IMG/VR virus record: IMGVR_UViG_3300037010_002556
Coordinates: 1 to 29,572 of that record
Length of the DNA stretch: 29,572 bases
DNA from: a virus
Reading direction: 5' to 3' (one strand)
Shown: positions 1,360 to 27,314 of the stretch, one piece after another
How positions within the stretch are numbered: the first letter of the stretch is position 1
Layout of the letters: the number at the start of each line of letters is the position of its first letter
Position numbers and translations under genes: made by a program
The notes under the pieces: model-generated
Told to the model about the DNA's origin: nothing
Databases searched by the model: none
What the model saw: the letters and a program-made list of their open reading frames with translations, nothing else

Positions 1360-1373
1360 ATATATAAGAAAGC
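1360..1373 (+). promoter_or_regulatory. candidate phage late promoter for the head operon
   Basis: The core ATATATAAGAAAGC is nearly identical to 9130-9143. Both are preceded by ACGAAA, and both begin exactly 49 bases before the ATG of a head-related gene block. The TATATAAG core recalls the T4 late promoter box (TATAAATA), but identity as a late promoter is inference from the shared sequence and position. Confidence 0.55.
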
Positions 1374-1408: not shown

Positions 1409-3460
1409 ATGAGCAATAACAACGAAATTCAAGATCTTGGAGCATTTGGTAAAGATTGGGTCTTCGTCCTTGAAAGGATGTCAGATTCTAATGTTGTTGA
1501 AGTGAAATCCAAGAATGAAGGTGGCGACTATATTCTCGAAGGTATAGCAGCGGTATTCGGACAGGAAAACAACAATCATAGAATATACGAGGAAAAGGAA
1601 TATCTTCCACACCTTGAATATTTACAAAAGAAAATTGCAAAGAAAAGTTTACTTGGTGAACTTGATCACCCTGCAAATTTCGAGACATCATTAAAAAACG
1701 CTTCTCATATTGTTGAATCATTAGAATATGATAAAGCAAATAGAAACGTTAAAATCAGAATAAGACTTATCAATGGACACCCAGCCGGTGAAATGGCAAA
1801 GGCTCTTGTAAATGCAGGAGTTCCATTACACATCTCTTCAAGAGCTGCAGGTGTTGTTAAAGAGAACAAGAAAGTTCAAATCAAAAAGATATTTACGTAT
1901 GACTTAGTAGAAAGTCCTGGCTTTGAACAAGCAGAACTTGAAAGAATCTATGAAAGCGTACAAGCTAAATTCAATGGAAAGGGTTCAGATTCAATTACTG
2001 AAGGGTTAGAAGATGTAACAAATAATGTAATTGGAGAAAATTCTGATTCGTTGAAGATATATAGAATAGATGAAAATCATCAAAACGCTTTTTTAAAGGC
2101 GTTAGATATTGAAAAAAATAATAATATCTCAGAAATGGCTAATAGAGATTTTGTAACAGTGGATGACATGAATGGATATTCACAAGTTATTAAAAAAGAA
2201 TTACAAGCGCTTAAAGATAAGATAAACAATCCTGAAGCAGCAAACGAGAATGCACCAGCAGTGGACGTTCTTGAACAAAGAATCGAGAGGATTGAAAAAT
2301 ACATGAAGTATCTTGCTGAGAACGTTGATAAAAATATTCAGTACTCTGAATATTTAGCAGAAAACGTTGACAAGACTATTGAGTATTCTAAATACTTAGC
2401 TGAGAACTTAGACAAGACTATCTCTTATGGAGAATACCTTGCAGAAAACGTTGACAAATCTATTTCTTATGGTGAATACCTTGCTGAGAACTTAGATAAG
2501 AGCATTACATACGCAAACTACCTTGCTGAGAATCTTGAAAAAGGAATTTCTTATGCTGAGTATCTTGCTGAGAACGTAGACAAAGCCATTTCCTACGGTG
2601 AATACCTTGCTGAGAACTTAGACAGAACAATCGCTTATGGTGAATACCTTGCTGAGAACTTAGATAAGAGCCTTGATTACAGCGAATACATTGCAGAAAA
2701 AGTTGACCAAAGCATTGCTTATGGTGAATATCTTTCTGAGACTTTAGATAAAGGAATTACATATTCTGAATATTTAGCTGAAAAAATTGAGAAAAACATA
2801 GCGTACTCTGAATATATAGCTGAGAACGTTAATATCGATGCTCCTAAAACTGCAACTGAAGTTGCAAAAGCAGAGGTAAATGAAAACAAGAAAGAAACAG
2901 GAAAAGTTGATTATACAACTTTACCTACACAGATAAGTTCATTGCTTGAAACTGTTAAAAACCAGAAAACAGCATCCGCATTGAACGAGAGCAAATACGC
3001 TTTTTATAAGCTTCTTAACGAAGACAAAAGAAAAGAATTTGTTGCTCTCGATGAGACCAAGAAAGAAAAGGTCGTTAAGGCGTTGGAAAACGGCGCTTAC
3101 TTCTCGGAAATGGACATCATCAAAAAATGGGATGCGTCATTAATAGAGCAAGAAAAGCCAACTGAACCTAAGTTCATTACGGAAATGCCAGAGAGCGTAA
3201 AACCAATCTGGGAATCTATGAATGTTCAAGAGAAAGAAGCAATAGTAGCAGCAAGTAAATTGCGTAAACTTGAAACTTCTTATCAAATAAAGAACTTCTG
3301 GAGTACAAGACCAGGAATGAGCAAAGACAAAGCAGTGGGTCTAATCAGACTCAACGAGAACGAAACAGCAGCTAATGCCGCAAAACCGAACATGACAGGG
3401 TATACAAATGACTACATGTCGGGAGTAGCTGATGAGTTAGCAAAGCGTTTCAAGAAGTAA
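1409..3460 (+). CDS. prohead core protease fused to scaffold protein (gp21-gp22 type)
   Basis: Residues about 1-185 resemble the T4 gp21 / peptidase S77 prohead protease. They include GELDHP with a candidate catalytic His at 87, HISSRAAG with a candidate catalytic Ser at 143/144, and YDLVESPGFE near 164-173. The region after about 190 is highly charged. Residues 298-479 are 13 copies of a 14-residue unit built on YGEYLAENLDK, expected to form an extended coiled coil. A charged C-terminal region (480-683) ends in a basic helix, as scaffolds that contact the capsid protein often do. In T4 the protease (gp21) and scaffold (gp22) are separate, so 683 aa fits a fusion. The LAE in nearly every repeat matches the (L/I)-x-E consensus of this protease class. 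The capsid protein gene follows after 27 bases. Confidence 0.85.
   Translation: MSNNNEIQDLGAFGKDWVFVLERMSDSNVVEVKSKNEGGDYILEGIAAVFGQENNNHRIYEEKEYLPHLEYLQKKIAKKSLLGELDHPANFETSLKNASHIVESLEYDKANRNVKIRIRLINGHPAGEMAKALVNAGVPLHISSRAAGVVKENKKVQIKKIFTYDLVESPGFEQAELERIYESVQAKFNGKGSDSITEGLEDVTNNVIGENSDSLKIYRIDENHQNAFLKALDIEKNNNISEMANRDFVTVDDMNGYSQVIKKELQALKDKINNPEAANENAPAVDVLEQRIERIEKYMKYLAENVDKNIQYSEYLAENVDKTIEYSKYLAENLDKTISYGEYLAENVDKSISYGEYLAENLDKSITYANYLAENLEKGISYAEYLAENVDKAISYGEYLAENLDRTIAYGEYLAENLDKSLDYSEYIAEKVDQSIAYGEYLSETLDKGITYSEYLAEKIEKNIAYSEYIAENVNIDAPKTATEVAKAEVNENKKETGKVDYTTLPTQISSLLETVKNQKTASALNESKYAFYKLLNEDKRKEFVALDETKKEKVVKALENGAYFSEMDIIKKWDASLIEQEKPTEPKFITEMPESVKPIWESMNVQEKEAIVAASKLRKLETSYQIKNFWSTRPGMSKDKAVGLIRLNENETAANAAKPNMTGYTNDYMSGVADELAKRFKK
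2300..2845 (+). repeat. 13 x 42-bp in-frame tandem repeat (14-aa scaffold unit)
   Basis: Thirteen consecutive 42-bp units encode Y-x-(E/K/N)-Y-(L/I)-(A/S)-E-(N/K/T)-(V/L/I)-(D/E/N) and a short variable tail; the last unit is truncated. Each unit is two heptads long. Nucleotide identity is high between some units (for example around 2468-2504 and 2635-2671), which suggests recent expansion by unequal recombination. Codon differences between other units show it is not an assembly collapse artefact. Confidence 0.95.
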
Positions 3461-3487: not shown

Positions 3488-5014
3488 ATGAAAATGATTA
3501 ACGAACAAGAGATCTTTGATAACTGGTCTCCGATCATCGAGAGCAAAACAACAATCAAAGACTCTAACAAAGTAGAATGGCTTTCTAAATATTGCCACTA
3601 CCACTCACTAAATGAAAGTTCTTCGACCGCATATCAGACTTTGTCTGGTCTTGCAGGATTCCAAGGACAACCAGTTGCTCCTACAAGAGGTGCTACAGGT
3701 TCAGGTGACAAATTCCCTTCTTTACTTCCATTAGCTATCCAGGTAGCTGCGAAGACTGTAGGTTTTGACATCGTTCCAGTTATCCCTATGCCAGGTCCAA
3801 CGGGTGTTTTAACTTACCTTGACTATGTATATGGTGGTGGTCAGTTAAACTCTGCGACTCAGCCTTTAGTAATTAAAGCTGGTATCTCAGGTACTTACAC
3901 AGTAGATTCAACTTACACTACAACAACTGTTGCTGGTGCTAACGCGGTTCTTACCTTCGTAGGTAAATCTCGTATCGATGGTTTCCCAATCTTCAGATAC
4001 GCTGCTGGTTTATTACCTAACACTCCAGTATCTACAGTATTTGCTCCTGCATCTACTTTCACTATCACTGACGATTTATCTGCAACCATCGCGTTGACAG
4101 TAAGCGCAGCGTTAGTTCCTGCATTAGAAGACCACATCGCTGGTTTCACTGGTGCTGGTGATACTGACACAGACGGCTGGGAAGGTCCATTCGCTACCTC
4201 TACAGGTAACGACGGTCCAATGACCAGAGAAACTGGTGAGTCAACGTACTACAGATCTATGGGTCTTAAAACGTTCACTAAGTTCGTTGAAGCTAAAACC
4301 TACCAGGTTGCTGCTTCTGTAACAACTGAGCAAATTCAGGATCTTAACAAACAATTCGGTATTGACGTGGTTTCCATGGTTGAGAACGCATTGGTGAATG
4401 AGATTTCTCAGTCTATCAACAAGCACATCTTAGGAACTGCGTTCACTCAAGGTGCTACGAACTCGACAAACTTCGCGGCAAACGAAGGTCAGTCGTTAAA
4501 CTTAAACCTTGCTGCCTTGCCAACAGTTGGTACGTTCGAAAATCAGATGACCTTCCAAAGAAGAATCTTCTCGAGAATTCTTGCGGCTGCTAACGTTGTT
4601 GCTAACAGAGGTAGAAGAGGTCCTGCAAACTTTGTTGTTTGTAACTCGCAAATTGCAACTGCAATTCAAGACATCAGCCAATTCGTAACAGCTCCATTCG
4701 CTAACACTGCATCGCAGAATAATGGATCGCTTTACCCAGTTGGTTCACTTGCTGGAATGACAGTTTATGTTGATCAAAACATGAAATGGAATGACACAAG
4801 AGTTCTTGTTGGAAGAAAAGGTTCTGACGATGAGCCAGGTATTAAATTCATGCCATACATGATGGCTGAGTCTATCCAGACTATCTCTGAAGGAACTATG
4901 TCTCCAAAGATTGCGGTAAAATCAAGATACGCGTTAGTGCTTGCAGGTTTCCACCCGGAAACTATGTACTTCACGTTCTCTATCGCCTTGCCAAGTTCAG
5001 GTCTGATCGTGTAA
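3488..5014 (+). CDS. major capsid protein, T4 gp23-like
   Basis: A 508-aa protein, close to T4 gp23 in length (about 520). The N-terminal 43 residues form a charged propeptide ending in SLNE-S (residues 40-44). This fits cleavage after (L/I)-x-E by the gp21-type protease encoded just upstream. The next part has the gp23-like run AYQTLSGLAGFQGQ followed by PTRGATGSGDKFPSLLPLA. The middle (about 120-250) is rich in Thr, Ala and Gly, as an inserted surface domain would be. C-terminal stretches such as FVVCNSQIA and SRYALVLAGFHPETMYF fit the HK97-fold core. It shows careful codon use (many C-ending codons) unlike most neighbours, as expected for the most abundant protein. A terminator follows. 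Confidence 0.9.
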   Translation: MKMINEQEIFDNWSPIIESKTTIKDSNKVEWLSKYCHYHSLNESSSTAYQTLSGLAGFQGQPVAPTRGATGSGDKFPSLLPLAIQVAAKTVGFDIVPVIPMPGPTGVLTYLDYVYGGGQLNSATQPLVIKAGISGTYTVDSTYTTTTVAGANAVLTFVGKSRIDGFPIFRYAAGLLPNTPVSTVFAPASTFTITDDLSATIALTVSAALVPALEDHIAGFTGAGDTDTDGWEGPFATSTGNDGPMTRETGESTYYRSMGLKTFTKFVEAKTYQVAASVTTEQIQDLNKQFGIDVVSMVENALVNEISQSINKHILGTAFTQGATNSTNFAANEGQSLNLNLAALPTVGTFENQMTFQRRIFSRILAAANVVANRGRRGPANFVVCNSQIATAIQDISQFVTAPFANTASQNNGSLYPVGSLAGMTVYVDQNMKWNDTRVLVGRKGSDDEPGIKFMPYMMAESIQTISEGTMSPKIAVKSRYALVLAGFHPETMYFTFSIALPSSGLIV

Positions 5015-5088: not shown

Positions 5089-5787
5089 ATGATTGGAATT
5101 TACAAAATAAGAAATAAAATAAATGGAAAATTTTATATTGGATCTTCCATAAATATAAATCATAGGTGGACTATACATACTAATTCATTAAAAAGAGGTG
5201 ATCACCATTCAATTGTATTACAAAGAGCATGGGATAAATATGGTCCAGATAATTTCATATTTGAAATAATAGAAGAGACTTCTAATGATGTTCTAATTGA
5301 ACGTGAGCAGTTTTACTTAGATGAATTAAAGCCTGCATATAATATAAGTTATACTGCTGGAAATTGTTTAGGAGTAAAAAGAAGTAAAGCTACTAAAGAG
5401 AAATTAAGAGAAATTAATTTAGGAAAGAAACATTCGGATGAAACAAAAAAGAAAATATCCAAAGGTCTTAAAAATTCTGAAACTTGGAAAGACTCTGTTA
5501 CTTCTGATGAATACAGAGAAAAGATGAGGGAACTTAATTTAGGAGAAAATAATCCAATGTGGGGTAAAGGCATAAAGGGTGAGACTAATCACATGTGGGG
5601 TAAATTTGGAAAACTACATCAAAGAGCGAGAAAAATCCTCCAATATAAAAAGACGGGTGAGTTTGTTAAAAAATGGGATTCATTAGCAGATGCAGAACGA
5701 GAAGGATTTTTACACGGTAATGTAAGTTCATGTTGTTCTGGGAAAATAAAAAGCGCATACGGATTTATTTGGAAGTGGACTAAATAA
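5089..5787 (+). CDS. GIY-YIG homing endonuclease with NUMOD modules
   Basis: A 232-aa protein starting MIGIYKIRNKINGKFYIGSS, which contains both the GIY and YIG elements of the nuclease domain (residues 1-90), followed by RAWDKYGPDNFIFEIIEE and an expected catalytic Glu. The middle carries two NUMOD3-like modules (LREINLGKKHS near 105-115 and MRELNLGENNPMWGK near 146-160). The end (about 190-232) resembles a NUMOD1/IENR1 DNA-binding helix. This is the layout of free-standing phage homing endonucleases of the Seg/I-TevI kind. It sits just after the capsid gene, a common spot for homing genes, and outside its terminator. It probably cuts alleles of a nearby gene in related phages. Confidence 0.9.
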   Translation: MIGIYKIRNKINGKFYIGSSININHRWTIHTNSLKRGDHHSIVLQRAWDKYGPDNFIFEIIEETSNDVLIEREQFYLDELKPAYNISYTAGNCLGVKRSKATKEKLREINLGKKHSDETKKKISKGLKNSETWKDSVTSDEYREKMRELNLGENNPMWGKGIKGETNHMWGKFGKLHQRARKILQYKKTGEFVKKWDSLADAEREGFLHGNVSSCCSGKIKSAYGFIWKWTK

Positions 5788-6147: not shown

Positions 6148-6666
6148 TTATTTAATATTTGACATTATGTTATCTACCGTGTTTGCTACTTCATCAATGC
6201 TTCCTTCGCCGTTGATTGGAAATAGTATTTTGTTTAAACTATAGAATTGTTTTAATGGATAGGTCTTGTCTTCGTATTCCTTGATTCTTTTATGTGCAAC
6301 TTTTTCGTTGTCATCTGCTCGTTCAGAAGTTTCTCCGCGTTTAACGATTCTGTTTATTACTTCTTCGCCAGATACCATTAGTAGTATCGCACCGTCGATC
6401 TTGATTAACTTGCTTAATGCTAAGGCTTGTTTAGTTGTGCGAGGAAATCCATCGAACACGAATTGGCCATCTGGATTTTCTTTTATTTTGTCTTCGACAA
6501 GCTTTATGACTACCTTATCGTCTACATAATCTCCAGTTCCAAGAGGAACCTTTTTTGCTCTTAATAAGTCTCCAGTTGAAACGTGTATAAGATTATATTT
6601 TTCAGCAAGCTTTTTTGCTTGGGTTCCTTTGCCTGAACCAGGAGGGCCAAATATTATTATGTTCAT
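6148..6666 (-). CDS. adk: adenylate kinase, short form
   Basis: A 172-aa nucleoside monophosphate kinase that converts AMP and ATP to two ADP in the cytoplasm. The P-loop GPPGSGKGT is at residues 7-15. HVSTGDLLR (NMP-binding) and FDGFPRT follow, and the later RIVKRGETSERADD region takes the place of the LID. It lacks the long zinc-type LID of typical 210-220 aa bacterial enzymes, so it is a short form. Strict AMP specificity cannot be shown from sequence, and UMP/CMP kinase activity is possible. It lies in a minus-strand run of small genes. Together with PPK2 at 27301 it could recycle nucleotides during infection. Confidence 0.9.
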   Translation of the reverse strand: MNIIIFGPPGSGKGTQAKKLAEKYNLIHVSTGDLLRAKKVPLGTGDYVDDKVVIKLVEDKIKENPDGQFVFDGFPRTTKQALALSKLIKIDGAILLMVSGEEVINRIVKRGETSERADDNEKVAHKRIKEYEDKTYPLKQFYSLNKILFPINGEGSIDEVANTVDNIMSNIK

Positions 6667-9129: not shown

Positions 9130-9143
9130 ATATATAAGATAGC
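9130..9143 (+). promoter_or_regulatory. candidate phage late promoter for the internal head protein block
   Basis: The core ATATATAAGATAGC differs from 1360-1373 at one base, is also preceded by ACGAAA, and lies the same 49 bases before the ATG at 9179. It is inferred to be a shared late promoter. Confidence 0.55.
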
Positions 9144-9178: not shown

Positions 9179-9577
9179 ATGAACAATCATCAAAACATGA
9201 AGAGAATTAAACCGTTAGAAGAATTCGGTAAGGACTTTTTACAAGAAGCCATCACTCCTGAAAAGGCAAAGTTTAGATTCTCCATTACAGCCAACATCAA
9301 AAAGGTTTCTAAGATTAATAAAACAATGATTGACATCCATCAGTTGTTGATAGAAATGAGTGATGAGATAGTTGCTTTGAAATTATCATACGATAATTTG
9401 GATGCTGAATCAATGAGAGTCATCAACAACATGAAGACTAATATTGACAATTTGATTGGAGCTCTTAAGAAGAAAAAAGAAGATGGATCTTATACTGGAA
9501 TGATTGACAACTCTGCAAGATTGGAAAGAAATCTCGAGAGGTTGAAGACCGGTTTCTTAAAAATGAAAGGAGTTTAA
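9179..9577 (+). CDS. putative internal head protein with capsid-targeting leader, 132 aa
   Basis: The N-terminus reads MNNHQNMKRIKPLEEFGKDF and then LQEA. The MKRIKPLEEF part resembles the capsid-targeting leaders of T4 internal proteins (MKTYQEFIAEA type), and LQE-A fits a gp21-type cleavage site. The remainder (about 30-132) is basic, helical and probably a coiled coil. A second ATG at 9197 would give the leader directly. The 9179 start is kept because its distance to the candidate promoter equals that seen for the protease gene. It is first in a five-gene plus-strand block with minimal gaps. Role unknown; packaging into the head is inferred. Confidence 0.65.
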   Translation: MNNHQNMKRIKPLEEFGKDFLQEAITPEKAKFRFSITANIKKVSKINKTMIDIHQLLIEMSDEIVALKLSYDNLDAESMRVINNMKTNIDNLIGALKKKKEDGSYTGMIDNSARLERNLERLKTGFLKMKGV

Positions 9578-9579
9578 CC

Positions 9580-9858
9580 ATGAAATTTATTAAACCGTTA
9601 AACGAATATGCAAACGCCGAATCGGAGAACTACGTTGAAGTAGGTCTTGAAGGCGTTTCTGCAAAAGATATTTTATTAAATGTATATCCAAAGACTTTTG
9701 AAGTCATAGTAAAAGATTTTGATGAACAATGTGATAAGAGTTCTGAATTCAAAAACAGAAACTTAGACATGTTAAGAAGTATAATAGGTTTCTTCTCTAA
9801 ATATCACGGTAAGAGCAAGTTCATGGATACCATGATACATAAATATAACTTGAAATAA
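9580..9858 (+). CDS. putative internal head protein, 92 aa
   Basis: It starts 2 bases after the previous stop. The N-terminus MKFIKPLNEYANAESENY closely parallels the MKRIKPLEEF leader of the previous gene, and LNE-Y could be a cleavage site. The remaining roughly 75 residues are mixed alpha/beta-looking with no recognised family. Its last base overlaps the next gene (TAATG). It is placed in the capsid-targeted group on the leader alone. Confidence 0.6.
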   Translation: MKFIKPLNEYANAESENYVEVGLEGVSAKDILLNVYPKTFEVIVKDFDEQCDKSSEFKNRNLDMLRSIIGFFSKYHGKSKFMDTMIHKYNLK

Positions 9859-10736
9859 TGAAACACTTAAAAATTTATTTAAAAATGAATCCATATTTAA
9901 CTTTTCGTCAGTTCGAACGAGCTGCAATATTATTGGAAAATGCACCTGAGGCTATTAGCGACGAAGTGCTGTCTGAAAATGAATTGACGAGAGAAGACAT
10001 TGAGAAAATCAATGAAGGTATTCTTGGCGACATATTCAGCGGACTGTTTGGCAAGATAAAAGAAAAGATCTTAAAAGCAATACCAGGTTCATTATTGAAA
10101 AAAGTAGATGTAATCTTAAATGAGTACAAGAAGGTTCAATTCGAAGTTTCTGAGAAAACTCAGAAAGAGAGAAATAAGATTTATAAAGCTAACGCGGACG
10201 ATAAAGGCAACGAGAGAAATAAAGAACAAGTTAAAAGATCTGAAGCAGCAATCGCGGCTATTGAGGCTGCAAGTAAAAGCAAGAAAGAATCCATTAAAGG
10301 AAAACTTGATTTATTGGTGAGAGATAAAAGTGATGTAGTTATAGATTACGTGAAGATGCAATTATTTCAAGTGCAAGAAGATGTTGCAAACAAACAATTG
10401 AAAGATGCTGAAGAGTTTGCAAGCGAGGAAGAGCTTGATAAATTAACCAAAGAAGTGGAAGACATCAAGAAGAAGAAAGAAGCACAGAAGAAGATGATTG
10501 AAAATGCTTCCATCGAAAAGAAAGATGATAAGGTTGACGCAAAAACAGCAAAGGTTGGACAGACTTGGCTTTATAAAAAAGATGATACAGAAGAAGGACA
10601 AGAGGTTACGATAGTGCATCAGTTTGGACATACAGGAGATGGTGCAGAAGAGGGGAAGATACAAGTGAAAGGAATAAAAGATCCATTTAATGTTGAACCT
10701 GCTAAATTGGTCAAATTAATTAAAGATATAAAATAA
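9858..10736 (+). CDS. putative internal head protein, coiled coil, 292 aa
   Basis: The N-terminus carries a basic hydrophobic leader and FRQFERAAILLENAPEA. After it comes EKINE-GILGDIFSGLFG (residues 50-66), where INE-G fits prohead protease cleavage. The central region (about 85-225) is a long highly charged coiled coil. The C-terminal part (about 230-292) reads VGQTWLYKKDDTEEGQEVTI and looks like a small beta domain. The order of leader, (L/I)xE-GIL, amphipathic helix and coiled coil is shared with the next gene, so the two look paralogous. It overlaps both neighbours by one base. Confidence 0.65.
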   Translation: MKHLKIYLKMNPYLTFRQFERAAILLENAPEAISDEVLSENELTREDIEKINEGILGDIFSGLFGKIKEKILKAIPGSLLKKVDVILNEYKKVQFEVSEKTQKERNKIYKANADDKGNERNKEQVKRSEAAIAAIEAASKSKKESIKGKLDLLVRDKSDVVIDYVKMQLFQVQEDVANKQLKDAEEFASEEELDKLTKEVEDIKKKKEAQKKMIENASIEKKDDKVDAKTAKVGQTWLYKKDDTEEGQEVTIVHQFGHTGDGAEEGKIQVKGIKDPFNVEPAKLVKLIKDIK

Positions 10737-12139
10737 TGATAATAGATAAATTCAAATTATTCGAGAGCCTTTCCATTGGAGCCATTGAAAGAGGAGAACA
10801 CAGAACCATTTTGAATGAATCTGAAATGTTGGACGAAGGAATTCTTTCTTCCATTACAAATTTCTTTTCTCGCATGTTAGGAGGTTCCGTCGCAAAGATA
10901 GATAAAATACTTCGTAGGTATGAAGATGCTGAATTGGAATATTGGATTGATTGGGCTGATGCTCGTGGTAAATTTTCTGAAGCTGATGCTCTTTCTAAAG
11001 AAGCTAAATCAGATCCTATTCAGAAATCTAAATATGAAGAGCAAAAAGAAAGAATCAAGAAGCTTCAATCACAGGTTGAAGGCAAAAGAAAAGACATACT
11101 TGATGCGTTAACACGTCAGGCAAATGCAATAATCAAAGACAGCGAAAGACTTAAAGATTATTGGGAGATGAAAAAGGCTAAAATAGATGAAGATGTTGCC
11201 AGAGAATCTTACAAAGAAGTTAAGAACTCAACTGATGATGAAACCATACATCAATTGTTTGATAACGAAATTCAAAGAGCTGCAAAGATTGCAAGAGACA
11301 AAGACGCTAAATTTAAAGAGAAATATGGTCCATTGTCTTCTGGTAAATTCTTTGATCAAGCACCAAATGCGGGAAGCAATGATGATGATGATTTATCTGT
11401 TGCCGGAATTAAGATCACAGATTTAATTTCTAAACCAATATCAGAGCTACAAAGTAAACTCAAGGTTATCCCATTAGACAAGCTTGATGAGATATTAAAG
11501 TATTTAGAAAAGGAATTGAAAAAGATTAAAGACCAAAGAGATGATGACATCAAAAACATCAAAGGAAAATCTGATAAAGACCAAATAGGAAGAGAAATAG
11601 ATGACATTACAAAGAAGGTTAAACCTATAATCGATGTGATGTGGTCTAAGATTAATTACATAGATCAATTGCTTCTTGCGAATGTTGGAATTGATAAAGA
11701 GATTAAAAAAAATCCTGAAATGGTTACTGACATCACTAAGAAAGAATTAGGGGCTGAAGGTACTGACAAAGCAGTGACAGCAGCAATTGCACAAACTGCA
11801 GAAGTGGTCAAGAAGCCAGATGTAGATGCCGTGACTGAAGTCATAAGCGATCAGGTTAAAAAGAATTTTGACACTGCACGTGGAACGATAGAAGAATCTG
11901 TTGGAGAATCTATCGATGATGACGCATATACTCATTTAAAAAATGACATGATTGCTTTATATGGAAAACTTGTAATCTATTATAATAAATTGAAAAAAGG
12001 AGTTCCATCAAAAACGCTTGAATTTGGTTTAATAGATTTTGCAGCACAACTTTATAAATTCAAAAAGGAAAATGATTCTTTGAAGAAAGATCTTACTGAT
12101 GATGAACTCGAAAAACAACTCGATAAATATTCAAAATGA
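10736..12139 (+). CDS. putative internal head protein, coiled coil, 467 aa
   Basis: The leader MIIDKFKLFESLSIGAIE is followed by TILNES and then MLDE-GILSSITNFFSRMLG. Both LNE-S and LDE-G fit the cleavage consensus, and LNE-S is the same as at the capsid protein. The region about 55-170 aligns by pattern with the previous gene (KIDKIL-RRYEDAELEY, then long charged helices). The rest (about 215-467) is also mostly helical and charged, with no catalytic motif seen. Start and stop overlap neighbours (TAATG; ATGA). A core or DNA-associated internal head protein is the best guess. Confidence 0.65.
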   Translation: MIIDKFKLFESLSIGAIERGEHRTILNESEMLDEGILSSITNFFSRMLGGSVAKIDKILRRYEDAELEYWIDWADARGKFSEADALSKEAKSDPIQKSKYEEQKERIKKLQSQVEGKRKDILDALTRQANAIIKDSERLKDYWEMKKAKIDEDVARESYKEVKNSTDDETIHQLFDNEIQRAAKIARDKDAKFKEKYGPLSSGKFFDQAPNAGSNDDDDLSVAGIKITDLISKPISELQSKLKVIPLDKLDEILKYLEKELKKIKDQRDDDIKNIKGKSDKDQIGREIDDITKKVKPIIDVMWSKINYIDQLLLANVGIDKEIKKNPEMVTDITKKELGAEGTDKAVTAAIAQTAEVVKKPDVDAVTEVISDQVKKNFDTARGTIEESVGESIDDDAYTHLKNDMIALYGKLVIYYNKLKKGVPSKTLEFGLIDFAAQLYKFKKENDSLKKDLTDDELEKQLDKYSK

Positions 12140-13320
12140 TAAAAAAATTCAGATTGTTTGAATCGCTTTATGAAGCAGCTCAAACTAAAGAAACTATAAT
12201 CAAGAAAGTGAAGGATACAGTTGGAGATGTTTATTACATTCCTGATTTCCAAGAGATTTCAAGACCTGATGAACCAGATCAAATTCAGTATTTGTTTTCA
12301 GATAAAGAAGGACACTCATTTACTTTAAACTTTACTGAAGACACTGGTATTTTATATAGTATTGATTTTTGGCTTCCACATTCTACAAAAGCTGAATCTA
12401 CTCTATATGTTGTAGGTCAAGACTTGGATAGAATAATTTCATTATTACCTAAGATGATGAAGAGTCCGCATCCACAAACAGTAAGAGAAAGTGAAGATGT
12501 TGCTTCTGAACCGGTTGTTTTGGAAAAACCAGCAGACACAGTTCAAAAATCTGGAGATGATAAAGTAGATAAAATAGACAAAGAACTTCCTGAATACAAA
12601 TATCAAGATCCAAAGACCATATTTGAGGATATGAGAAAGTATGTGAAGATGGTTATAAAAGGAATTCAACCTTCTTTGCTTGTTACTGGAATGCCAGGTG
12701 TTGGTAAGACTTATATCACAAGCGATGAAATTAAAAAAGCAGGACTTGAAAAAGGAAAAGATTGGGTAAAAGTAAAAGGTAAAACTACTGCCGCAGCTTT
12801 GTATATTTCATTATACAGAAACAATGGTAAGTTAATAATATACGACGATTGTGATAGTGTGTTTAAAGATCCAAATGCTATCAACACATTGAAAGGAGCT
12901 CTTGATTCTGAAGACGATGAAAGAGACATCACATGGGATATTTCAAGAGAAATAAAAGATCCTATGAATGGTGAAGTTGTTCCAAGAAGTTTTAAGTTTA
13001 CTGGAAGGGTTATCTTCTTAAGTAACCTTGCTCAAAAAGCAGTTGATCCTGCTATCAAGTCAAGAGCATTTGTTCTTGAGGTTGCATTGTCACCAAGCGA
13101 TATGATCGAATACATTGAAGACCTTTTGCCTAAAGTAATGCCAGAAGAATCAATGGCACTTAAAAATAGTGCATTAAACACTATTAAGAGTGTTGAAAAA
13201 GTTAATAAGAAAGTTCAATTGAATATGAGAACTTTATTGAAGGCAGTAAAAATATTAAAAGAAGTTCCTGATTTAGGCGATGCAAGAAGAATGATTGTCC
13301 AACAGTGTTCGTACGAATAA
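12136..13320 (+). CDS. AAA+ ATPase with capsid-targeting-like leader, 394 aa
   Basis: The N-terminus MIKKFRLFESLYEAA repeats the KFxLFES leader of the previous gene, with LYE-A as a possible cleavage site. Residues 25-110 form an unrecognised alpha/beta domain, and 111-155 are a charged linker. The ATPase domain has Walker A GMPGVGKT at 185-192, Walker B LIIYDDCD at 233-240, a sensor-1-like IFLSN at 293-297 and IKSRAF at 307-312. This suits an AAA+ domain of the kind seen in phage ATPases of unclear role, not a helicase or terminase. Its start overlaps the previous stop (ATGA), and its stop overlaps an inserted HNH gene. Confidence 0.8.
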   Translation: MIKKFRLFESLYEAAQTKETIIKKVKDTVGDVYYIPDFQEISRPDEPDQIQYLFSDKEGHSFTLNFTEDTGILYSIDFWLPHSTKAESTLYVVGQDLDRIISLLPKMMKSPHPQTVRESEDVASEPVVLEKPADTVQKSGDDKVDKIDKELPEYKYQDPKTIFEDMRKYVKMVIKGIQPSLLVTGMPGVGKTYITSDEIKKAGLEKGKDWVKVKGKTTAAALYISLYRNNGKLIIYDDCDSVFKDPNAINTLKGALDSEDDERDITWDISREIKDPMNGEVVPRSFKFTGRVIFLSNLAQKAVDPAIKSRAFVLEVALSPSDMIEYIEDLLPKVMPEESMALKNSALNTIKSVEKVNKKVQLNMRTLLKAVKILKEVPDLGDARRMIVQQCSYE

Positions 13321-13886
13321 TGGATTACAAAAAGATATATGACAATTTAATCACTTCTCGTAAATTGAGAATTATCAATAGTGGAATTTATTACGAGAAA
13401 CATCATATTATCATGAAATCGATGGGAGGAACCAATGACAAGGATAATCTTGTTTTGCTTACTCCCAGGGAACATTTTCTTGCACACTGGTTATTATTTA
13501 AAATTTATGGAAATGCTGAATCCTCTCGAGCATTTTTCCTCATGAGTAATAGAGGGAAAAATAAAAAATATCTATCTTCTCGTGCTTATGCTGAAGCAAG
13601 AGAGGCTTTTTCGAAAATTAAAGTTTCCGAAGAAACCAGAAGAAAAATAGGTTTGAAATCACAAAATCGTTTTCACTCAAATGAGCAAAAGAAGAAAAAC
13701 TCAGATGCTCATTTAGGAAAAACAACTTGGAACAAAGGAATTTCAAATAAGCCGGAACAGTGTAAAAATATTTCGAAATCATTAAATAAATTTTATGATT
13801 CTGATGAAGGTCTTTTATTAAAACAAAAAAGATCTGATATGGTTAAAGAGTATTGGAAAAATAAAAAAAATTCCAATGCAAAATAG
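13320..13886 (+). CDS. HNH homing endonuclease with NUMOD3-like region, 188 aa
   Basis: The start ATG at 13320 overlaps the TAA of the ATPase gene (TAATGG). An earlier ATG inside the ATPase gene is less likely. The HNH core reads YEKHHIIMKSMGG (around 24-36) then DNLVLLTPREHFLAHWLLF, with the usual His/Asn/His placement. The C-terminal half is basic and holds ETRRKIGLKSQNRFHS and GKTTWNKGISNKPE, typical of NUMOD3 DNA-binding modules. It ends in TAG, a stop rare among genes here, and overlaps the next start by 11 bases. It is probably a free-standing homing gene inserted into the head protein block without damaging the flanking genes. Confidence 0.85.
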   Translation: MDYKKIYDNLITSRKLRIINSGIYYEKHHIIMKSMGGTNDKDNLVLLTPREHFLAHWLLFKIYGNAESSRAFFLMSNRGKNKKYLSSRAYAEAREAFSKIKVSEETRRKIGLKSQNRFHSNEQKKKNSDAHLGKTTWNKGISNKPEQCKNISKSLNKFYDSDEGLLLKQKRSDMVKEYWKNKKNSNAK

Positions 13887-14505
13887 AAAGATAAAGACAT
13901 ATAGTCAATTTGTCTTTGAGAAAGCAATTCCATTCGAAGACATTTTAAAAGATGATACACAGCAAGGACTTGTTGTCAAAGACAGCAAAGCACCAGGTGG
14001 TGGAATTCTTCGTAATATAGTGTTGTATGATTTTGACGATAAAAAAGTTCTTGCATTTGCACAAATACGTGAGTGGGATGGAATTTGGGAAATCAATATG
14101 ACAGTAGCGGAAAAGGATTACGGTCCAGATCTTTACGACCTTGCTCTTATGTCTGCATATCCTGAACCCATAATTCCATCAAAGACTATTAAACCTGCTG
14201 CACAAAGAGTTTGGACCTATTATAAAGAGAAAAGAAATGATGTTAAGAAGGTTCCTATTCCAGAGGACCACAGCGAGTATAAGAAAAGATATGAGACTTC
14301 AGTTAATGGAAAAGAAGCTTATAGTAAAGATCCAGACATGCTTAACGTGATAAATACAATGTATTCATTAGAACAAAGCGATGTATTTGACAAACTCATT
14401 AAACGTGGCGAAGAGTATCTTATAAAATATCACGTTGATAAGAATAAAATTATTCATGATGCAGATAGAGTATTTTGGAAAAGATATGACTTGTCAACAG
14501 ATTAA
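13876..14505 (+). CDS. putative internal head protein with T4-like leader, 209 aa
   Basis: Residues 5-15 read KIKTYSQFVFEKA, strikingly close to the MKTYQEFIAEA leader of T4 internal proteins, and VFE-K may be the cut site. The body contains DFDDKKVLAFAQIREWDGIW, which looks like a mixed beta-sheet domain, and LYDLALMSAYPEPIIPSKTI. It resembles phage proteins with an acetyltransferase-like or toxin-like core, but no catalytic motif can be named. The last 70 residues are helical. It overlaps the HNH gene and ends the block before a likely new promoter near 14528. Confidence 0.65.
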   Translation: MQNRKIKTYSQFVFEKAIPFEDILKDDTQQGLVVKDSKAPGGGILRNIVLYDFDDKKVLAFAQIREWDGIWEINMTVAEKDYGPDLYDLALMSAYPEPIIPSKTIKPAAQRVWTYYKEKRNDVKKVPIPEDHSEYKKRYETSVNGKEAYSKDPDMLNVINTMYSLEQSDVFDKLIKRGEEYLIKYHVDKNKIIHDADRVFWKRYDLSTD

Positions 14506-18782: not shown

Positions 18783-19379
18783 ATGAAAAAATATCTTAAA
18801 GTTGGAATCGGTGTATTTATTGGGCTTCTGTTATTCATGAATGGATGTACAAGTTTTAATACAATGGGAATTAAAGAAGAAAAAGTGGAACAAACTTGGG
18901 GCGATGTTCAAACGCAATATCAAAGGCGTTCTGATTTAATACCTAAATTAGTTAAAGTTCTTTCTGCGAATGCAAATTTTGAAAAATCCACTTTAACGGA
19001 TGTTATCAATGCAAGAGCCAATGCAACAAAAATAGTTATTGATCCAAGCAAATTGAATGCTCAATCACTTCAACAGTTTGATGCAGCTCAATCACAGGTA
19101 TCAAATTCATTATCACGACTGCTGGTTTCGGTGGAAAAATATCCGGATTTAAAAGCAAGTGCACAATTTATAGATTTGCAAGCTGAAATATCTGGAACCG
19201 AAAACAGAATAACCATTGTGAGAAAAGATTTTAACTCAACAGTGAATGATTTCAATAGTTACATTAAAGTGTTTCCAAAAAATATTTGGGCTAAATCATT
19301 TGGCTTCTCTCGTAAGGATTATTTCAAAGCAAACAGTAATGCTCAGGATTCTCCAGACATAAATTTCGATATTAAGTAA
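18783..19379 (+). CDS. lemA: LemA family lipoprotein
   Basis: A 198-aa protein with a basic hydrophobic N-terminus and a lipobox-like FMNGC (Cys at 22), so it is probably membrane-anchored. The core EEKVEQTWGDVQTQYQRRSD followed by LIPKLVKVL is the LemA signature, and the remaining helices (KYPDLKASAQFIDLQAEISG then TENRI) fit the family four-helix bundle. LemA proteins are common in bacteria, often next to TPM-domain proteins, and their function is poorly understood. Here a TPM gene lies two genes downstream. A phage copy is unusual. It could act at the envelope on host physiology or lysis timing, but that is inference. Confidence 0.9.
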   Translation: MKKYLKVGIGVFIGLLLFMNGCTSFNTMGIKEEKVEQTWGDVQTQYQRRSDLIPKLVKVLSANANFEKSTLTDVINARANATKIVIDPSKLNAQSLQQFDAAQSQVSNSLSRLLVSVEKYPDLKASAQFIDLQAEISGTENRITIVRKDFNSTVNDFNSYIKVFPKNIWAKSFGFSRKDYFKANSNAQDSPDINFDIK

Positions 19380-19381
19380 AT

Positions 19382-20320
19382 ATGGCTAAGGGTAAGAACA
19401 GTGGCATGTTTAGACATGGCATCTATGACATACAAAAAACGATGAATTGGATGGAAACAGATTCATCGTTTGATACCGATAGAAACCTTAAAAAATTTGA
19501 AAGTCTTGATGTATTGTCTGGATTGCTTGGATATAAAGTCTTTAAAGCAAAAGGAGTTAAGTGCTGTTGTTGCCCAACTACAGGTGAATATTTCGCTTTA
19601 GAAAAAACACCTGGTAAAGGAAGTAGTAAATACAATAATTGGCATTTTAATTTATATGGAAAAGACCATTTTGGTAGAGAGGTTTTAATGACCAAAGATC
19701 ATATCACTGCTCGTTCAAAGGGAGGTTCTAATGAGCTTGAAAATCTTCAGCCAATGTGCATGATATGTAACACTAAGAAAGGTTCCATGCACATGAAAGA
19801 ATTTGAAGCAAATCAACAGGGAAAAACTCATGATTGGAATCTTGACCATGCAAATCATACCATTAAAAGAATTAAAGAGAGATATTCCTTGGATATGAGT
19901 ATTAAAGAATACAGTCATTTCCTTGATCGTGCAACACAAGGTTGTGAAATGGTTCATGTTATCTCAAATTCTAAGTCATATAGAAAAGTACGATTCAAAG
20001 ATAATGATGTATATTGTTTATATTCTTCCATGCATAAGACCATTTATACGGTAATTACCGCAGACGAAATGGAAAAAAGAAAACAGCATGTTCCTAATTG
20101 GGGAAAAGGAAATGAAAAAGCATGTCATGAATTGTATAAACATGTTACTGAAGTAATAAATGAACAATTAAAAAATTCAAGTTCTATAACAACACAAAAA
20201 GAACTTGCAGAATATTTTGCTAAATGTAAATATCCAACTTTGATGTTTGCTTTATGGAAACAAAAAACAAACATTAACATAGGCAGTAGTAAAAAGCACA
20301 TTAAAATTAACAGACAATGA
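19382..20320 (+). CDS. HNH endonuclease with extra C-terminal domain, 312 aa
   Basis: It starts 2 bases after lemA. The nuclease core has a cysteine cluster KCCCCPTTGEYF (about 60-71), then TKDHITARSKGGSNELENLQ (about 104-123) and PMCMICNTKKGSM. This is a zinc-supported HNH motif with the D-H pair and the closing Asn. The C-terminal half (about 160-312) is a separate domain with DRATQGCEMVHVISNSKSYR, of unknown type. It lies between lemA and the TPM gene and may have inserted as a homing gene. Its stop overlaps the next start (ATGA), so it is integrated in the operon. Confidence 0.8.
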   Translation: MAKGKNSGMFRHGIYDIQKTMNWMETDSSFDTDRNLKKFESLDVLSGLLGYKVFKAKGVKCCCCPTTGEYFALEKTPGKGSSKYNNWHFNLYGKDHFGREVLMTKDHITARSKGGSNELENLQPMCMICNTKKGSMHMKEFEANQQGKTHDWNLDHANHTIKRIKERYSLDMSIKEYSHFLDRATQGCEMVHVISNSKSYRKVRFKDNDVYCLYSSMHKTIYTVITADEMEKRKQHVPNWGKGNEKACHELYKHVTEVINEQLKNSSSITTQKELAEYFAKCKYPTLMFALWKQKTNINIGSSKKHIKINRQ

Positions 20321-20514
20321 AGAAACAGAACCAACCACAAACAACAGCAACCATGGAGTGCCTGTACGATAATCACGTAGCTTTAACAAAAGGTAATTCT
20401 TATGAAGTTCTCCAAGAAGATGAAAATAAAGTTTATGTAATTGATGATAATGGAAAAAGAAATTCTTTCTATAAATCGCGCTTTGTCCAACCAGTAAAAA
20501 CCACAACTAAATAA
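20317..20514 (+). CDS. small SH3-like beta protein, 65 aa
   Basis: A 65-aa protein. After a Gln/Thr-rich N-terminus, residues 14-60 (CLYDNHVALTKGNSYEVLQE then NKVYVIDDNGKRNSFYKSRF) read as a five-strand small beta-barrel of the SH3 type. That pattern is common in short phage and Bacteroidetes proteins. The gene overlaps both neighbours (ATGA at its start, TAATG at its stop), indicating translational coupling to the TPM gene. Function unknown. Confidence 0.6.
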   Translation: MKKQNQPQTTATMECLYDNHVALTKGNSYEVLQEDENKVYVIDDNGKRNSFYKSRFVQPVKTTTK

Positions 20515-22193
20515 TGAAAAATCTGTTTATTTTAATCGCAGCCTTTTTATGGCTTAATGTAAATGCTCAAAATATACCTGAGCATAAGTCTAACACATAC
20601 ATCAATGATTTTGCAAATGTTATTGATGATTCACAAGAACCAATACTTGATAAAAAAATTAGAGATTTTAAAGCAAAGTCTTCCATTGAGATGACTGTTG
20701 TATCAATCACATCTCTTGATGGAAGTGATATAGATAGTTATTCAAATGCATTGTTTAGAAAATGGGGAATCGGAACATCTCAATTAAACAATGGATTACT
20801 TATATTATTTTCTGTTTCAGACCGTAAATGGAGGATTGAGGTTGGCGACGGCCTCGAAGAATATATGACAGATGGATATGCAAAGGTAGAAGCAAAAAAT
20901 GTTTTGGTTCCTTACTTTAAGCAAAAAGATTATTTCAGTGGCGTTAATGCCTTAGTAGATGATTTTATAACTAAACTTGGTCCATTATCATGGGATGAAA
21001 GAAACGCGCTTAAAGCAAAACAAGCAGAAATTGCTGCAAAAGAAGCACAAGATTCGAAAGATGCAATGGTTTCATTCTTCACTTGGTTTTCCATTTTTGT
21101 AATTGCGGGTTTAGGTATTTTCTTATACGTTAGAAATGAGATTAAAAAGAAACGTAAATTAGAAGAAGAAGCAAGAGAACAAAAAATGAAACTTGAAGCA
21201 CTTGTTTCGGAAAATAATACGGCAATAAATTATTTTTCAAAAATGTCACAATGGGCAAAGGAAAATAAAGATTTATTTAAAAGCGGCTTATATGCAAGAG
21301 CAGTTAACTTTGAAGATTTTGATGCTGCTAAAAATAAATTAACTGATTTGCTTGCTCAAAGAAATTTATCGATTGAATATCTTGAATCTGAAAAACTTCT
21401 TATAAGAAATACTTCAAAAGAACTTTTAGATAAAATTAAAGATGTGTATGTTGCTTATACTAAAATGAAGGCATTAAAGTCTTCCATACAAGAAGCATCA
21501 TCTCAATCAAATGGATATAAAACATCTGTTAATAACACAGATACAAAACACAAACGCGCTTTAAGTACATTTGGAATAGCTGTATTAGACATATCGTTTC
21601 CACAAGCAATGTTGATTAATAAACTTAATACAGTAGATTCTACACTTTCCAGATTAAATTCAATGTCAGCTTTAGATGATTTATCTTCCATGCAAAAAGA
21701 TTTTGCGCAAGTGAAAACATCTTTACGAGATGTTAGCACACAAATTGATATGGTTAACAAGAGAATTGATTCTATAAATAGCGCAGTTCAATATGTTTCC
21801 AGCAATAGAGGAAAAATAAACACTTTATTGAATGAAGCTCAATATAAGGTTAAAGACAGCGATGTTGAATATTCCACAAAAAGTAAATTCAATACCGTTA
21901 AGGCAAAAGCAGAAATGTTTAGAGAGAATCCAAATCCATTAATTGCTTATACAGAAATGAGTACATTGATTAATGATTTAAACTCTGTCATTAAACGTGC
22001 GAAAGATGATATATCTGATGCTGAGAGAGAAAGAGAAAACGAAAATGAAAGAAGAAGAAAAGCAGCAGAAGCCGCAGCATTAATTTCTTCCACGTCTTCA
22101 TCTTCATCTTATTCAAGTACAACCAGTTCAAATGATACTACAAGTTTTGGTGGTGGAAGTTCAAGTGGTGGTGGAGCTTCAGGAGATTGGTAA
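20514..22193 (+). CDS. TPM-domain membrane protein with long coiled coil, 559 aa
   Basis: A signal peptide (residues 1-18, ending NVNA-Q) is followed by a TPM_phosphatase domain (about 25-155). Family features include YINDFANVIDD, the IEMTVVSI strand, RKWGIGTSQLNNGLLILFSV and RKWRIEVGDGLEEYMTD. One transmembrane segment is at about 187-206, and a long coiled coil (about 210-530) follows. The C-terminus ends SFGGGSSSGGGASGDW, the Gly/Ser tail usual in this family. The TPM domain would lie outside the membrane and the coiled coil inside. It forms a pair with LemA upstream, as in many bacterial genomes. Its long internal coiled coil is larger than usual. Enzyme activity is unproven. Confidence 0.85.
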   Translation: MKNLFILIAAFLWLNVNAQNIPEHKSNTYINDFANVIDDSQEPILDKKIRDFKAKSSIEMTVVSITSLDGSDIDSYSNALFRKWGIGTSQLNNGLLILFSVSDRKWRIEVGDGLEEYMTDGYAKVEAKNVLVPYFKQKDYFSGVNALVDDFITKLGPLSWDERNALKAKQAEIAAKEAQDSKDAMVSFFTWFSIFVIAGLGIFLYVRNEIKKKRKLEEEAREQKMKLEALVSENNTAINYFSKMSQWAKENKDLFKSGLYARAVNFEDFDAAKNKLTDLLAQRNLSIEYLESEKLLIRNTSKELLDKIKDVYVAYTKMKALKSSIQEASSQSNGYKTSVNNTDTKHKRALSTFGIAVLDISFPQAMLINKLNTVDSTLSRLNSMSALDDLSSMQKDFAQVKTSLRDVSTQIDMVNKRIDSINSAVQYVSSNRGKINTLLNEAQYKVKDSDVEYSTKSKFNTVKAKAEMFRENPNPLIAYTEMSTLINDLNSVIKRAKDDISDAERERENENERRRKAAEAAALISSTSSSSSYSSTTSSNDTTSFGGGSSSGGGASGDW

Positions 22194-27227: not shown

Positions 27228-27314
27228 ATGAAGAAAGATTCTTTACGAATAGCAGATTCAAACTCTGTTTGGCAAAAAGTAAAAAGTAAATTAAGAAAGA
27301 ATGGAAATAAGTAA
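27228..27314 (+). CDS. 28-aa ORF, probably a gene fragment
   Basis: MKKDSLRIADSNSVWQKVKS with a lysine-rich end. It overlaps the PPK2 start by 14 bases. From ATAGCAGA (27249) on it joins in frame with the remnant at 25968 if the insert is removed, so it is probably the 3' end of the disrupted gene rather than a separate gene. Confidence 0.35.
   Translation: MKKDSLRIADSNSVWQKVKSKLRKNGNK

Follow-up and report, generated by a model that had tools for sequence, protein, structure and literature searches.

The internal proteins IPI, IPII and IPIII of bacteriophage T4 carry a capsid targeting sequence that was reportedly described by Mullaney and Black in 1996. It stands at the N-terminus of the proteins and reads MKTYQEFIAE↓A, where the arrow marks the cleavage position. 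This sequence has been reviewed (PMC9026906, PMC3012670). For T4 itself, Alt and three internal proteins are described, and some ten internal proteins have been reported among its T-even relatives (PMC12373910, PMC9026906); the bodies of the T4 internal proteins show no homology among themselves (PMC12373910). In IPIII, residues 4 and 7 govern targeting and residues 8 and 10 govern processing, and an aspartate at residue 10 stops processing while targeting is unaffected (PMC9026906). Here we analyse the viral record IMGVR_UViG_3300037010_002556, whose whole stretch of 29,572 bases (G+C 33.5%) is referred to as the window, and in which six genes between positions 9179 and 14505 were originally predicted to share a short leader marking proteins packaged into the capsid. 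We find that this shared N-terminus is very probably a lineage-specific capsid targeting leader of the T4 type that is used on dozens of proteins.

The leader of the window resembles the T4 targeting sequence in being N-terminal, 10-14 residues long, attached to unrelated bodies and linked to a gp21-type protease, but its consensus differs and begins with a longer basic stretch (MKHIK). Whereas T4 has three internal proteins and Alt, 59-70 genes are tagged in one genome here, and the protease, unlike that of T4, continues into a large scaffold in which LAE repeats stand in tandem. Homology limited to a packaging leader, together with variable gene clusters, is likewise found in the Tequatrovirus proteins Ip1-3, which are injected inhibitors of type IV restriction (PMC12373910); the tagged set described here is far larger, has bodies that include enzyme domains, and is known from sequence alone. 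The ejection proteins of the giant phage SPN3US (PMC5694885) are comparable in that they comprise many head proteins, several of which are cut by the prohead protease at an E-type site. However, the SPN3US propeptides often exceed 100 residues and are mostly not common to several proteins (PMC5694885), while here one short leader occurs on dozens. Sphingomonas phage PAU has the same leader organisation under its own consensus, with 19 tagged genes and two annotated internal capsid proteins, and was not described as having a targeting leader in the literature found. Among open-licence papers, searches for the leader string and for jumbo-phage targeting sequences turned up no description of the tagged set.

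The left part of the window encodes a T4-type head module, with a protease-scaffold gene followed by one for a Gp23 major capsid protein. An IMG/VR contig of 482,156 bases, referred to as G001, is the closest relative found; its major capsid protein is 91% and its protease 87% identical to that of the window, and gene order is mostly the same. By capsid protein, the nearest named genome is that of the huge uncultured phage LR756500 (46%), followed by the Lak phages (~41%). To train a leader profile, we used 199 IMG/VR leaders, none of them from the window or G001, and allowed one-residue gaps; these gaps were required, as ungapped position weights miss 10736, 12136 and 13876 (genes are named by their first base). 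All six predicted open reading frames (ORFs) are present, and they rank first to sixth among the 47 ORFs of the window, bearing out the prediction of a common leader. Their shuffle p values are 3.5e-4 (13876), 2.1e-3 (9179), 3.5e-3 (12136), 3.9e-3 (10736), 7.1e-3 (9580) and, for the weakest of the six, 0.03 (9858), while none of the remaining window ORFs falls below 0.05 (Mann-Whitney, six versus rest, 9e-8). A tblastn search of the phage collection with a 20-residue leader query gave no matches, because 20 residues are too short.

The leader consensus is MKHIKLFExF(I/V/L)NE↓(A/S/G). When aligned on the two aromatics, LFEQFINE↓A matches T4 TYQEFIAE↓A (read from NC_000866) position by position, with the common spacing aromatic-x-x-aromatic-(I/L/V)-x-E↓A. 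At the columns corresponding to IPIII residues 4, 7, 8 and 10, the 199 leaders have an aromatic in 98%, an aromatic in 95%, I/L/V in 68% and E in 69% (D in 11%). The targeting columns are therefore better kept than the processing columns, in agreement with the prediction from IPIII. The full core, aromatic-xx-aromatic-(I/L/V)-x-E, occurs in 117 of the 199 leaders and is followed directly by A, S or G in 63 of these 117 (54%, versus 18% in the background). Among the G001 leaders, 63% have (L/I/V/F/M)-x-E at positions 9-14, as compared with ~10% in shuffles and 6-18% in later parts of the proteins.

Within the leader, codon choice for a given residue roughly follows the usage of the whole genome, and it is therefore the peptide, not the DNA, that is conserved. 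This bears on the notion that the shared 5' ends are a DNA-level feature, either recombination sites that swap accessory genes or a translation-enhancing start region. Such a feature would fit the gain and loss of members of tagged-gene clusters between relatives, but the codon choice, and the variation of leader sequence between lineages while residue spacing is kept, both speak against it; already disfavoured, it strikes us as very improbable.

The original prediction proposed a search for further members, and applying the leader profile to G001 placed 70 of its 780 ORFs above the 99.9% point of the shuffled distribution, where ~0.8 would be expected. These ORFs lie in many clusters, at 56-61, 137, 147-160, 202-206, 265-272 and 458-470 kb and elsewhere. 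With their first 20 residues removed, the 70 proteins gave no pairwise BLAST match at 1e-3 and form 70 body clusters. At the DNA level, a pattern for MKx(hydrophobic)K(hydrophobic)(F/Y)E was found 44 times in G001 and once in a reversed control, and it is present in most other contigs examined. The predicted block of neighbouring leader genes thus exists but is the wrong unit, because the leader sits on dozens of genes around the genome. In the viral collection the leader pattern marks more than 120 stretches, versus only two contigs, one of them a Bacteroidetes bin, in 257 Gb of bacterial and archaeal genomes.

ORFs were also clustered blindly by identity over their first 13 residues, with residues 31-43 as the control. 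In T4 one cluster (n = 3) comprised ipII, ipIII and a 54-residue ORF, and the method therefore recovers an experimentally proven leader. The 54-residue ORF, at NC_000866 position 18966, starts with MKTFKEFIKED, close to the ipII and ipIII leaders, and may encode another packaged protein. In a second T4 cluster (n = 3), which includes the position of mobD, a homing endonuclease, similarity extends by eye past the first 13 residues; some N-terminal clusters are therefore not leaders. Clusters in the control had two or three members. The largest blind cluster in G001 contained 59 genes with 59 distinct bodies; those in other genomes had 19 genes in PAU (19 bodies), 22 in contig G008 (21 bodies), 8 in contig G011, and 27 ORFs (18 bodies) in the first 400 kb of LR756500, with a consensus near MKYIKxYExFIxE. 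Several tagged bodies in LR756500 (L211-L230) come from one family containing LELIAKLAKVS. PAU leaders read MKT(L/I)xxLYEAKLNE↓A, and the annotated internal capsid proteins gp142 and gp154 are tagged with KLNE↓A. Each lineage therefore has its own leader wording around a common spacing, an outcome that joint evolution of leader and core would predict. A different shared N-terminal stretch, LNLSSFxxI ... NRKLGRVGxxY, was observed in the Bacteroides phage proteins DAC16_76, _79 and _82 (L005:13031-19786), a trio that includes an AAA ATPase relative and a zeta-toxin-like kinase; it is possibly a second, unrelated kind of packaging leader.

The leader genes of the window all lie on the plus strand, as do the HNH endonuclease gene, the protease/scaffold gene with its repeats, the major capsid gene and the two promoter-like elements. 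The first (9179..9577; 132 amino acids, aa) carries its leader, MKRIKPLEEFGKDFLQE↓A, at 9197-9247; the leader begins at the internal Met7, where the G001 ortholog starts, and the site is LQE↓A in the window and LSE↓A in G001, after a 3-residue insertion. The second (9580..9858; 92 aa) has the leader MKFIKPLNEY at 9580-9609 and no clear cleavage site. In the third (9858..10736; 292 aa) the first 13 residues are not conserved and the conserved leader is LTFRQFERAAILLEN, so that the start codon may be at 9885, an equally good alternative; LTFRQFERAAILLE↓N lies at 9897-9938, and the candidate sites are LLE↓N, LSE↓N and INE↓G (INE53↓G ends at 10016). The fourth (10736..12139; 467 aa), a partial paralogue of the third, has the leader MIIDKFKLFESL and candidate sites at LNE28↓S (ending at 10819) and LDE34↓G (ending at 10837). 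The fifth (12136..13320; 394 aa) encodes an AAA ATPase of the phrog_1250 family, with the leader MIKKFRLFESLYE↓A ending at 12174 and the site LYE↓A. The block is then interrupted by the insertion of an HNH homing endonuclease gene (13305..13886; phrog_655, 1.2e-44) without a leader. The sixth leader gene (13876..14505; 209 aa) carries KIKTYSQFVFE↓K, ending at 13920, and its KTYSQFVFE is indeed similar to T4 KTYQEFIAE, as had been noted. It is also the gene in the window with the exact T4 aromatic and processing spacing, the other five having variants. An (L/I)-x-E followed by a small residue, which had been predicted for most of the six, is clear in 9179, 9858, 10736 and 12136, is replaced by VFE↓K in 13876, and is doubtful in 9580, where LNE↓Y is the only candidate.

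The first 15 aligned residues are 100%, 93%, 100% and 87% identical between the window and G001 in 9179, 9580, 10736 and 12136, respectively, versus 77%, 65%, 67% and 74% in the remainder of the same proteins; 9858 is the exception (57% versus 59%). Relatives of 10736 and of 9179 were found in G001 only, and 10736 had no match among named phages. Homologues of 13876, ~30% identical, occur at a different locus in G001 and in two further contigs, and they too start with the leader. For the predicted fold of 13876 (mean predicted local distance difference test score, pLDDT, of 72), GNAT acetyltransferases were among the top matches but not significant (best E 0.011, template modelling score, TM, ~0.3); a GNAT fold is possible on this weak match. 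None of the six window proteins matched an internal protein in Pfam or PHROG, so body homology to IPI, IPII or IPIII was not found; the six genes are classed as working like T4 internal proteins, not as members of their families.

Upstream of the block, 1409..3460 encodes a head maturation protease of the gp21 type with a scaffold/core domain fused to it (phrog_207, 9e-37; Peptidase_S77, 2e-8). Its scaffold part contains 13 tandem 14-residue repeats, YLAEN(V/L)DKxIxYxE, at 2309..2854, each with an LxE↓N-type site, and such repeats are present in both the window and the G001 fusions. The scaffold has 21 LxE↓small sites versus 6.0 in shuffles (maximum 12), an excess also occurs in most other protease-scaffold fusions checked, and the repeats look as if they were built for shredding at maturation. 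Besides the window and G001, a gp21-type protease was found in 18 of 23 tagged contigs, a count that covers tagged contigs only, all of them fragments. The adjacent gene encodes the major capsid protein of the Gp23 family (3488..5014; PF07068, 1.8e-44), with a candidate maturation site, LNE43↓S44, ending at 3616. The PAU capsid protein has been N-terminally sequenced and has a mature length of 520 residues (PMC5646251); the nearest LxE site, LME64↓N65, predicts 521, within one residue of the sequenced start. A GIY-YIG homing endonuclease gene follows the major capsid gene at 5089-5787.

The claim of a capsid targeting leader with a head-protease site is well supported as to the type of leader, by the profile statistics, the non-homologous bodies, the T4 spacing, the gp21-type protease and the T4 control. 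The leader is also short, basic and amphipathic, and ~30% of its copies lack E at position 13, as might be seen if the LxE pattern were incidental and the proteins were sent to a membrane, to a compartment made by the phage or to a host partner. The exact T4 spacing, the preference for A/S/G behind the E, the linkage to a gp21-type protease and the positive control in T4 make such a different destination improbable in our view.

The leader set, its conservation as a peptide, the spacing shared with T4, the positions of LxE and the protease are computed, and from them we infer that the leader acts as a T4-type targeting sequence, with binding to the core, cleavage, packaging and injection. A pair of aromatic or bulky hydrophobic residues at a spacing of three (F7 and F10 of MKHIKLFEQFINE) would bind the prohead core, here the scaffold domain fused to the gp21-type protease, and the tagged proteins would be incorporated into that core. 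The protease would cut after (I/L/V)-x-E, freeing the mature protein inside the head, and would also shred the scaffold at the tandem LAE sites. Mature proteins would remain with the packaged DNA, and many would probably leave the head together with it and become active immediately in the new host, as AAA ATPase, Nudix, acetyltransferase and anti-defence-like enzymes. The window block would then be one cluster of a genome-wide set, an operon read from a promoter-like element common with the head genes. Delivery of the block proteins to the host would follow by analogy with T4, and injection of most tagged proteins seems to us somewhat favoured.

Tagged proteins mostly have no match at all. Domains on tagged G001 proteins include Nudix, pol-X, ATP-grasp (of the ribosomal protein S6 glutaminyl transferase type), an esterase-like family and LPD11, and those in other contigs include GNAT acetyltransferases, lysozyme, AAA ATPase and nucleotidyltransferase. 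A match to 2'-5' RNA ligase/Acb1-like proteins in a tagged protein of another contig was weak, under the Pfam cut-off, and was rejected. The range of these bodies is relevant to whether the tagged block proteins belong to the structural core or scaffold, as T4 gp67, gp68 and gp22 do, in which case they would enter the prohead through the leader without being cargo for the host. The products of 9179, 9858 and 10736 are lysine- and glutamate-rich and encoded just after the capsid genes in an order kept in G001; 9858 and 10736 are partly paralogous with several LxE sites each; and the annotated PAU scaffold gp152 also bears the leader. The AAA ATPase and the 13876 family, however, are not scaffold-like, the genome-wide set includes Nudix, pol-X, ATP-grasp, GNAT and lysozyme domains, and the G001 version of the block holds three extra tagged genes absent from the window (one with MKHIKLFESFINE↓A), unlike an essential core. 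We consider a purely structural role unlikely, although a serious contender; 9179, 9858 and 10736 may be components of the core or scaffold and not cargo, and both kinds may be represented among the six window proteins.

Several observations weigh against a packaging leader. The E at position 13 is missing from ~30% of leaders, in many leaders the residue after the E is K or E, and 9580 lacks a convincing cleavage site. No proteomics was found for any phage with the exact leader, and the internal-capsid annotations in PAU do not state their reason. Lak-A2 and PTm1, which have T4-type heads, had no match to the exact leader pattern, although they were not clustered genome-wide. Finally, among the matches of the 12136 AAA ATPase are nrdC.10-annotated proteins of T4 relatives, and nrdC.10 of T4 itself lacks the leader. 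The version of this ATPase in the 642-kb phage LR756502 does have the leader, as do neighbouring genes; gain or loss of the tag on one body is the behaviour that a modular address label would show.

The block had also been predicted to be produced under a head-type late promoter, for which support is modest. The promoter-like element TATATAAGAAAG (1361..1372) precedes the start codon of the protease/scaffold gene (ATG at 1409) by 48 bases, and TATATAAGATAG (9131..9142) lies at the same distance before the ATG at 9179 and is kept in G001. These are the only two matches in the window to TATATAAGAWAG, with 0.02 expected for a pattern written after both sites had been seen. In G001 the 9179 ortholog retains TATATAAGAWAG and the protease gene has the one-base variant TATATAGGAAAG. 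The bare 8-mer TATATAAG was not significant (1.3 expected), significance being confined to the 12-mer, and no further convincing promoter motif was found upstream of the tagged G001 genes. In some of these (95658, 147415, 432854), ATATATAGACC or ATATATAAGAC stands immediately before the ATG and may indicate leaderless late transcripts. Elsewhere in the window, genes for a LemA protein and for a membrane protein with a TPM domain lie two genes apart (18783-22193), PPK2 is encoded at 27301 and, on the minus strand, adenylate kinase at 6148.

On balance, we lean slightly towards the view that huge phages of the T4 superfamily have an encapsidated proteome, in which about one-tenth of the genes (59-70 in a 482-kb genome) are tagged and dozens of enzymes and anti-defence proteins would be packed, trimmed by the head protease and injected with the DNA, the leader serving as a modular address label. 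Being legible from sequence, such a leader would predict in one step the packaged set of huge phages, mostly proteins without an assigned function. The tagged set would be a candidate list of take-over and anti-defence proteins, and the leaders may serve as new address tags with which foreign proteins could be loaded into very large heads.

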